A stretch of DNA of 41,883 nt from Anaerolineae bacterium (GTDB lineage: Bacteria; Chloroflexota; Anaerolineae; UBA4142; SHND01), in contig JADZCJ010000088.1 in assembly GCA_020851635.1 (NCBI GenBank), positions 1-41,883 on the forward strand, written 5' to 3'. Made by a program: the position numbers and the translations under genes. Below the pieces are notes generated by a model. That model saw only the letters and a program-made list of their open reading frames with translations, was not told where the DNA came from and made no database searches. Shown piece after piece: positions 2,446-3,794 of this stretch (position 1 is its first letter; each line of letters starts with the position of its first letter).

Positions 2446-2491
2446 GAATACCAGTTGGGGCTATGGCGAAATTGGCAGCCGCGACGGACTT

Positions 2492-2767
2492 AATCTGAGC
2501 ACCGGTGGAGAAATCCTCCGTGTGAATTCTGTCAAAGTCGGTGAACCCTCCACCAAATGGTGGTGGCAATACCGAGCCAAGTTTCATGATTTGTCTGAAA
2601 AACGGCAAATCACGAAAAAGGTGTAGAGACTTGACGGCAGAGACCTAAGGTAGCGATGCTACGGTCAAGGTAAAGTCCAGACCACAAAACGGAACGCAAA
2701 TCTAGCGCGCAAATCTGGCGCGCAAATCTCTGATTTGCGACTGTGCGGCGCAAGCCGTAGTGGTACG
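2492..2767 (+). ncRNA. Group I self-splicing intron in the tRNA-Leu(UAA) anticodon loop
   Basis: The 276-nt insert ends in G2767, the expected terminal guanosine, and exon 1 ends in U2491. Core helices can be paired by eye. P3 is GTCAA (2531-2535)/TTGAC (2631-2635). P4 is CGGT (2539-2542)/ACCG (2571-2574). P5 is CCACC (2550-2554)/GGTGG (2559-2563). P6 is 2582-2593/2606-2617. P7 is GACTT (2628-2632)/AAGTC (2673-2677). P8 is GACC (2642-2645)/GGTC (2663-2666), capped by GTAGC/GCTAC. The stretches GTGTAGAGAC and AGTCCAGACCACA match the conserved R and S regions of tRNA-Leu introns as I recall them. P1 is weak by eye: CUU/GAG with a U-G pair at the splice site. No homing endonuclease is encoded. 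It probably belongs to the IC3-like tRNA introns. Confidence 0.85.
2695..2739 (+). repeat. 13-bp tandem repeat and palindrome inside the intron
   Basis: CGCAAATCT begins at 2695, 2708 and 2721, a 13-base period over nearly three units. The last unit runs into GATTTGC to make the hairpin GCAAATC-TCT-GATTTGC (2722-2738). Apart from loop bases this is the same palindrome as at 2280-2296 outside the intron. It lies 3' of P7, in the peripheral part of the ribozyme, where insertions are tolerated. Confidence 0.75.
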
Positions 2768-2828
2768 AAAATCCGTTGGAGCAGCCCTCCGTGAGGGTTC
2801 GAGTCCCCCTAGCCCCACACCCACGCCT

Positions 2829-2906: not shown

Positions 2907-3794
2907 ATGTCAGAAGAATTCAATCCAAAACCCGAGACGGTCCTTGAACCGTCGAACGAACTAGACCAAGCTCCCACCGTCCCCGATACACAGGTCGAAT
3001 CCGAAAAAGCAGCACAACCCAAATCCGACAAAACGCCCATGTGGCGCCTGTTGATCGCCCCCGCCTGGTTTCTCTTGGGCGTCCTCGCCGGATTAGGAAT
3101 CTTTGCCGCCTACACCCAATACACCGCCAAACCGCCGATCCCGCCCCTGAGCGCCGCGGAGGTCAAGCAGGCCTCGCGCGACGGATTCATGGAAGCGCTT
3201 CAGGAAATGCAGGCGCAGAGCGGGGGCGGCGGCTCGCAGGGTCCCCAGGCAGTTGACCCGAACGCGTTTGCTATCCGCGACGCAAACGTTCTCGGCAACC
3301 GCGACGCCAAAGTCTCTATCGTCGAGTTTGCAGATTTTCAATGCCCCTTTTGCGGACGACATCATGAAATGGTCTTTCCGTCCATCGTACAAGACTATGT
3401 AGACACGGGCAAGGCGACGTATGCATACAAACATCTTGCCTTTTTAGGTCCCGAATCAGTCTATGCAGCCATCGCCGCCGAGTGCGCGGCAGACCAGGGC
3501 AAGTTCTGGGAATTTCACAATTTCTTGTTCGAACATCAACAGGGTGAAAACCAGGGCGCGTTTACCAACGACAAACTGATCGCTTTTGGCAAGGAATTGA
3601 ATCTGGACATGACGGCGTTCGAGCCGTGTGTGACGAACGGCGCGACCGTCTCCCGCGTGCAGGCAGACACCGAAGAAGCGCAAAAGCTTCACGTGGGCAG
3701 CACACCGACATTCTTTATAAACGGCAAACCGCTGGTGGGACTTAAATCGCCGGACGAGTTCAAGACGGCGATTGAGCAGGCGTTGGCGGAATAA
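2907..3794 (+). CDS. Membrane-anchored DsbA-family thioredoxin protein
   Basis: A 295-residue protein with a charged Pro/Glu-rich cytoplasmic N-terminus, one membrane segment (about 48-69) and an extracytoplasmic thioredoxin-like domain. The domain has the redox motif CPFC (146-149, in FADFQCPFCG) and the cis-Pro region VGSTPTFFING near the C-terminus. This is the layout of DsbA/BdbD-like disulfide oxidoreductases (Thioredoxin_4 type) that act on secreted proteins. A Gly-rich linker (105-112) separates anchor and domain. The start at 2907 places a promoter-like site 27 bases upstream. No DsbB or VKOR partner is visible nearby. It stands as a single gene, with the next gene convergent. Confidence 0.88.
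   Translation: MSEEFNPKPETVLEPSNELDQAPTVPDTQVESEKAAQPKSDKTPMWRLLIAPAWFLLGVLAGLGIFAAYTQYTAKPPIPPLSAAEVKQASRDGFMEALQEMQAQSGGGGSQGPQAVDPNAFAIRDANVLGNRDAKVSIVEFADFQCPFCGRHHEMVFPSIVQDYVDTGKATYAYKHLAFLGPESVYAAIAAECAADQGKFWEFHNFLFEHQQGENQGAFTNDKLIAFGKELNLDMTAFEPCVTNGATVSRVQADTEEAQKLHVGSTPTFFINGKPLVGLKSPDEFKTAIEQALAE

Follow-up and report, generated by a model that had tools for sequence, protein, structure and literature searches.

The question raised by this locus is how the tRNA-Leu(UAA) gene of a bacterium outside the Cyanobacteria came to be interrupted by a group I intron at the site known from cyanobacteria and plastids. The tRNA-Leu(UAA) intron is a textbook ancient intron and its spread has been debated since the 1990s; to our knowledge, that debate had no agent of mobility at its disposal. 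The window analysed here, a stretch of 41,883 nt representing contig C88 of the host assembly, carries the intron in the sole tRNA-Leu(UAA) gene found. The reading held with considerable confidence is that of an IC3-like group I intron from a Chloroflexota clade spread by homing, present here at a later, endonuclease-free stage, with phages as the likeliest vehicle.

The interrupted tRNA gene and the fold of its insert

With introns allowed, ARAGORN detected one tRNA gene in the window, tRNA-Leu(taa); with introns disallowed, it called no tRNA there. The original prediction had placed the gene at positions 2457–2817, and both the ARAGORN exons and the fold of the joined exons, a normal tRNA-Leu with a long variable arm, agree with this to the base. 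The insert of 276 nt follows U34, between GACTT and AAAAT, and thus lies between U34 and A35 as had been claimed, the insertion site of the cyanobacterial and plastid tRNA-Leu(UAA) intron; it also terminates in the G required of a group I intron. CCA is not encoded at the 3′ end of the gene. The features of the locus are as follows.

2457–2491, forward strand: 5′ exon of tRNA-Leu(UAA), ending at U34 (ARAGORN with intron; sequence)
2492–2767, forward strand: group I intron, 276 nt, IC3-like, with omega-G as its final base, G2767 (ARAGORN; Rfam RF00028; covariation)
2489–2499, forward strand: helix 1 of the drawn P1–P9.0 structure, invariant in 13 introns
2528–2641, forward strand: P3 (2528–2533 with 2636–2641), around P4, P5 and P6 (Rfam; covariation, with four pairs changed on both sides in relatives)
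2577–2621, forward strand: P6, the first pair of which covaries through all four Watson-Crick types
2628–2677, forward strand: P7, the guanosine-binding helix (2628–2631 with 2674–2677), invariant in 13 introns
2642–2666, forward strand: P8 (sequence; structure alignment)
2681–2764, forward strand: P9.0 (2681–2685 with 2760–2764), adjoining the 3′ splice site (13-intron alignment)
2695–2739, forward strand: P9 extension with three copies of CGCAAATCT, the last inside the palindrome CGCAAATCTCTGATTTGCG at 2721–2739 (sequence; repeat search)
2768–2817/8, forward strand: 3′ exon of tRNA-Leu(UAA), starting at A35 and ending with the discriminator base (ARAGORN; sequence)
2907–3794, forward strand: DsbA/thioredoxin-like gene just downstream of the tRNA (Pfam), a syntenic marker in congeners with and without the intron

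The covariance-model search proposed for the insert gave a match to Rfam Intron_gpI (RF00028) above its cut-off (55.7 against 50 bits, E = 1.3e-11, positions 2481–2693), the sole Rfam family to exceed its cut-off in the window. The claimed core pairing of P3 to P8 was scored within a hand-drawn P1–P9.0 structure, including the P7 pseudoknot, on an alignment of 13 introns (the window insert, ten tRNA-Leu introns of Chloroflexota and two of phages, with the long P6 contents removed), and 500 shuffles served as the control. The pairing was borne out: 92.7% of cells were paired, both sides changed in 25 of the 58 pairs against 11.5 in the shuffles, none of the 500 shuffles scored as high, and sliding the structure by one column lowered pairing to about 40%. 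The inner pairs of P5 and P8, drawn from the window sequence alone, are poorly shared among the 13 introns. P1 is invariant across them, and the first pair of P6 is of a Watson-Crick type in 214 of 216 related introns, with all four types represented (C-G 146, U-A 38, G-C 25, A-U 5, other 2). The motif CCUAAG...UACGG in P8, judged by eye, resembles the 11-nt GAAA-tetraloop receptor.

The window intron is apparently intact and is predicted to be self-splicing. From the conserved anatomy and the known family, guanosine bound at P7 would attack at the U·G pair of P1, and the freed U34 would then attack after omega-G, joining U34 to A35 and yielding a tRNA that reads UUA. The palindrome in the P9 extension is a dispersed repeat of the host genome (22 matches at up to 3 mismatches, control 1). 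In the form CGCAAATC(T/C)C(T/C)GATTTGCG it occurs twice in the window, at 2279–2297 upstream of the tRNA and at 2721–2739 in the P9 region, and a repetitive stretch of the type TCTGCCATCTGCTATC occupies positions 2350–2412, also upstream of the tRNA.

Presence and absence of the intron within one genus

The host genome G000 (5.8 Mb in 144 contigs, 97.7% complete, 3.2% contamination) is taken as that of a Chloroflexota bacterium of the class Anaerolineae and not of a cyanobacterium, in keeping with the view that the host stands outside the Cyanobacteria. This assignment follows from two related genomes, one of the same order and one of the same class, in which the matching motif has coordinates identical to those in 'Anaerolineales bacterium UBA4826' and in UBA3071, respectively. 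RecN and the DsbA-like neighbour have orthologues in five congeners, and the window contig is therefore not a stray one. The genes named around the tRNA are consistent with their Pfam matches, except that the 'mevalonate kinase' is supported by generic GHMP kinase domains only.

Within the genus, represented by the host and the congeners G408, G409, G410, G411 and G412, three of the six genomes contain the intron (G000, G410 and G412) and three an uninterrupted gene (G408, G409 and G411). The DsbA-like gene immediately follows the tRNA gene, in the same orientation, both in G000 and G412, which have the intron, and in G408 and G409, which are empty, so that the four genomes display one locus in two states; synteny covers these four, the G410 contig ending beside the tRNA and the DsbA-like gene of G411 lying on another contig. 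Presence and absence at one homologous locus, by which a mobile intron is recognised, are thus both found. In the tree of RecN and DsbA, the three intron-bearing genomes cluster together (87/87), a grouping that would be compatible with a single gain; because this support is moderate, one gain and several gains are both possible.

Endonuclease genes in sister introns and in phages

The second mark of a mobile intron, an endonuclease ORF of its own, is absent from the window copy, as had been predicted: the longest open frame in 2492–2767 is one of 51 aa, antisense, and the P6 loop, only about 37 nt long, contains neither an ORF nor a recognisable endonuclease remnant. It is in this loop that the relatives carry an HNH endonuclease ORF. 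The introns of G410 and G412, of 689 and 739 nt, each contain a full-length HNH ORF in P6, as does the same intron in G028, a member of the same class and another family. In further Anaerolineae, the frame of the HNH ORF is broken (L308) or all that is left is a short 3′ piece coding for the CPNCHA..DNYRG end (L034, L301 and L312). The G410 protein matches the phage family phrog_10822 (HNH endonuclease; E = 5.7e-47), and for its relative from G028 the match is to Pfam HNH; a search of G000 with the HNH protein found no full-length match, only a distant one of 37 residues.

The window intron groups with those of G410 and G412 in the intron tree (100/99), and in the endonuclease tree the G410 and G412 proteins group together (98/93) within a larger cluster (97/95). 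These groupings favour the view that the window copy once had an endonuclease and lost it, the most economical account of the intron and endonuclease trees taken together; since the window P6 holds no remnant, the intron may alternatively always have been endonuclease-free. Homologous HNH ORFs also occur in P6 of other tRNA-Leu introns: those of Bacilli have them on the sense strand, and in gammaproteobacterial copies and some from viral contigs they are antisense. The opposite orientations in the same loop suggest that HNH genes were captured repeatedly by different introns. In the open-licence papers searched, an HNH-bearing tRNA-Leu(UAA) intron is unreported, and the accessible parts of that literature yielded no report of an HNH ORF in P6 of a cyanobacterial or plastid tRNA-Leu intron.

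A tblastn search of named phages revealed in the uncultured phage LR756511.1 (595 kb) an HNH protein that is 56.5% identical to the G410 protein over its whole length. It is encoded in a 700-nt intron of a tRNA-Leu(UAA) gene, in the same place and orientation as in the Chloroflexota introns, and it is sister to the Chloroflexota set in the endonuclease tree with moderate support (83/85). A second phage record, LR756501.1 (735 kb), has a tRNA-Leu(UAA) intron of 205 nt without an ORF. Both records are assumed to belong to the huge-phage study, and the word intron is absent from the main text of the huge-phage paper (PMC7162821). Introns in phage tRNA genes were first noted in 2019 in the Lak megaphages, where they are called enigmatic and, in the main text, not named as group I (PMC6784885); the phage copies of the present analysis belong to group I and interrupt tRNA-Leu(UAA), one of them with an HNH ORF. 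According to a pattern scan combined with ARAGORN, at least 38 viral contigs carry tRNA-Leu(UAA) introns, and one contig (L196) combines an HNH-bearing intron copy with a phage DNA polymerase and a DnaB-like helicase. The related-locus search of viral contigs with the HNH protein gave no hits, and no phage of this Chloroflexota host was identified among the phage copies.

A freestanding HNH relative adjoins a tRNA-Leu in Gordonia phage GodonK, another overlaps one in Synechococcus phage S-CRM01, and in Dulem virus 42 (L351, positions 1404–2021) an HNH relative lies within a leucine-like tRNA gene, around which a group I core was not recognised. The same kind of intron was also seen in viral contigs L167–L285 in tRNAs assigned to Arg(UCU), Lys(UUU), Asn, Thr, Phe, Ser and other isotypes; among the ARAGORN calls there, some (SeC, Pyl) probably name the wrong tRNA.

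In the favoured reading, the P6-encoded HNH endonuclease would cleave tRNA-Leu(UAA) genes that lack the intron, the intron would be copied into them during repair, and phages with the same intron-endonuclease unit would be the likeliest vehicle between lineages; the window copy would represent a later stage, with the intron fixed, the endonuclease ORF gone and a genomic repeat in P9. Recent mobility is indicated by the patchy occurrence of the intron at one locus in one genus, together with the HNH ORFs in sister copies and the copy in a huge phage. Since the DNA-cutting gene, which could copy the intron into empty genes, persists in close relatives from the same genus and from a huge phage, the supposedly cyanobacterial, non-mobile tRNA-Leu intron is a member of a family that is wider and probably mobile. 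The route of the intron, at first regarded as an open question, is indicated to be no longer fully so, and the signs of mobility do not decide between an intron older than the cyanobacteria and one acquired laterally. One genus and its class present all the stages, i.e. the empty gene, the endonuclease ORF, the decayed ORF and the ORF-free intron, plus the phage unit, and, as these stand side by side, the question of origin becomes testable by a simple cleavage assay.

Wider distribution and alternative origins

An intron in tRNA-Leu(UAA) outside the cyanobacterial lineage had been regarded as exceptional, a view that has to be abandoned. When named bacterial genomes were scanned for the P7–P8 motif, at least 119 stretches were returned, which are pattern matches and not a measure of prevalence. 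By ARAGORN, 52 of the 119 matches listed are tRNA-Leu(UAA) introns, with isolate genomes of Phaeodactylibacter, Lewinella, Thiohalophilus and Peristeroidobacter among them, and the remainder lie for the most part in tRNAs to which ARAGORN gave other identities, such as Met(CAU) and Arg(CCU), some calls being shifted or wrong in isotype (e.g. Leu(CAA) for an apparent CAU tRNA). Vepritskiy et al. reportedly described a tRNA-Leu(UAA) intron in a subsurface isolate of Pseudomonas in 2002. Because tRNA-Leu(UAA) introns are seen in Gamma- and Alphaproteobacteria, Bacteroidota, Bacilli, Chloroflexota and phages, occurrence outside the Cyanobacteria is unexceptional, and an interrupted tRNA-Leu-TAA was reported earlier in Thiomargarita and Beggiatoa (PMC4853749).

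The gammaproteobacterial introns share with the window intron the gene, the site and a non-cyanobacterial host, and many of the copies found have a homologous HNH ORF in P6, but on the opposite strand; they form a separate clade (94/95), which also takes in some introns from other tRNA genes, and their P6 starts mostly with U-A, not C-G. The cyanobacterial and plastid intron resembles the window copy in gene, U34/A35 site, core architecture and absence of an ORF, the window copy differing in its Chloroflexota host and in having close relatives with an HNH ORF in P6.

The intron tree comprises 201 cores, for which the alignment anchor was widened to include GAGCUAAG, so that 47 rows were regained. 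The 13 tRNA-Leu introns of Chloroflexota constitute one clade in it (99/99). A single origin of all 88 sampled Leu(UAA) introns, cyanobacterial ones not being among them, was rejected by the AU test (p-AU 7e-94), a value that, like the one given below for the tRNA-fMet introns, calls for cautious reading as the groups were defined only once the first tree was available and the cores offer about 190 columns with long branches. An Anabaena intron, the only cyanobacterial sequence compared and added along with one Azoarcus sequence, was provisionally placed on a long branch that does not belong to the Chloroflexota clade; blastn with that sequence gave zero matches in plasmids and partial ones only in phages, and the viral-contig pattern scan contained no cyanobacterial introns.

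The best surviving alternative is vertical descent, i.e. an ancient intron that predates the split of Chloroflexota and Cyanobacteria and was kept here and lost in most relatives. It would agree with the single Chloroflexota clade and with the site shared with the cyanobacterial intron, but it is unlikely in view of the patchy distribution (the P7 motif occurs in only 12 of 400 Chloroflexota genomes, tRNA-Leu and other sites together), the coexistence of introns and empty genes in one genus, the endonuclease ORFs of the sister introns and the rejection of one clade for the 88 introns. The favoured reading, homing with phages as vehicle, can be extended only tentatively, to the effect that the Leu(UAA) introns, the cyanobacterial and plastid ancestor included, might be branches of one phage-carried mobile family, with an HNH endonuclease dedicated to the anticodon region and captured in both orientations by several lineages. 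If this is true, the plastid intron, held to be immobile and ancient, would be a relic of a phage-carried homing cycle.

It is very improbable that the insertion is decayed and non-functional and that a further gene copy provides tRNA-Leu(UAA). A second, intact copy, the finding of which would have spoken against the original prediction, was sought in the host assembly with up to 2 mismatches allowed, and none was found; with 144 contigs at 97.7% completeness an intact copy may be missing from it, but the exons, once joined, give a sound tRNA fold, P1, P4, P7 and omega-G are conserved, and the structure is under covariation. The genome's tRNA list, with 41 genes, has no entry at the tRNA-Leu(UAA) locus because its model is blind to a split gene.

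The host has a second group I intron, of 646 nt, in an initiator tRNA-Met(CAU) (L002, contig C104, tRNA at 1038–1756), which is also present in G410 and G412 and, in a version of 269 nt without a long ORF, in G408. The host copy encodes a PD-(D/E)XK protein that closely resembles I-Ssp6803I of Synechocystis (PDB 2OST, E = 4e-60). The Synechocystis tRNA-fMet intron with I-Ssp6803I is likewise a mobile-type group I intron in an anticodon loop; it differs from the window intron in the tRNA, in the endonuclease type (PD-(D/E)XK, not HNH), in the position of the ORF in the 5′ part and in its clade. In the accessible portion of a 2007 compilation, I-Ssp6803I (tRNA-fMet) is the only one named among bacterial tRNA genes (PMC1995217). 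A recent ectopic jump inside G000 from the tRNA-fMet intron, with its similar core, into tRNA-Leu is the least probable origin and is disfavoured by the core tree, in which the fMet introns form a separate clade with those of Nitrospirota and Methylomirabilota (100/97), and by the AU test, which rejects one clade of Chloroflexota Leu and fMet introns (p-AU 0.0009), the endonuclease families being different as well. Another Chloroflexota genome, G011, contains three group I introns in three tRNA genes (L039, L046 and L047), two with PD-(D/E)XK-type ORFs (tRNA-fMet and tRNA-Tyr) and one, in a CAU-type tRNA, with an antisense ORF bearing a C..CH motif.
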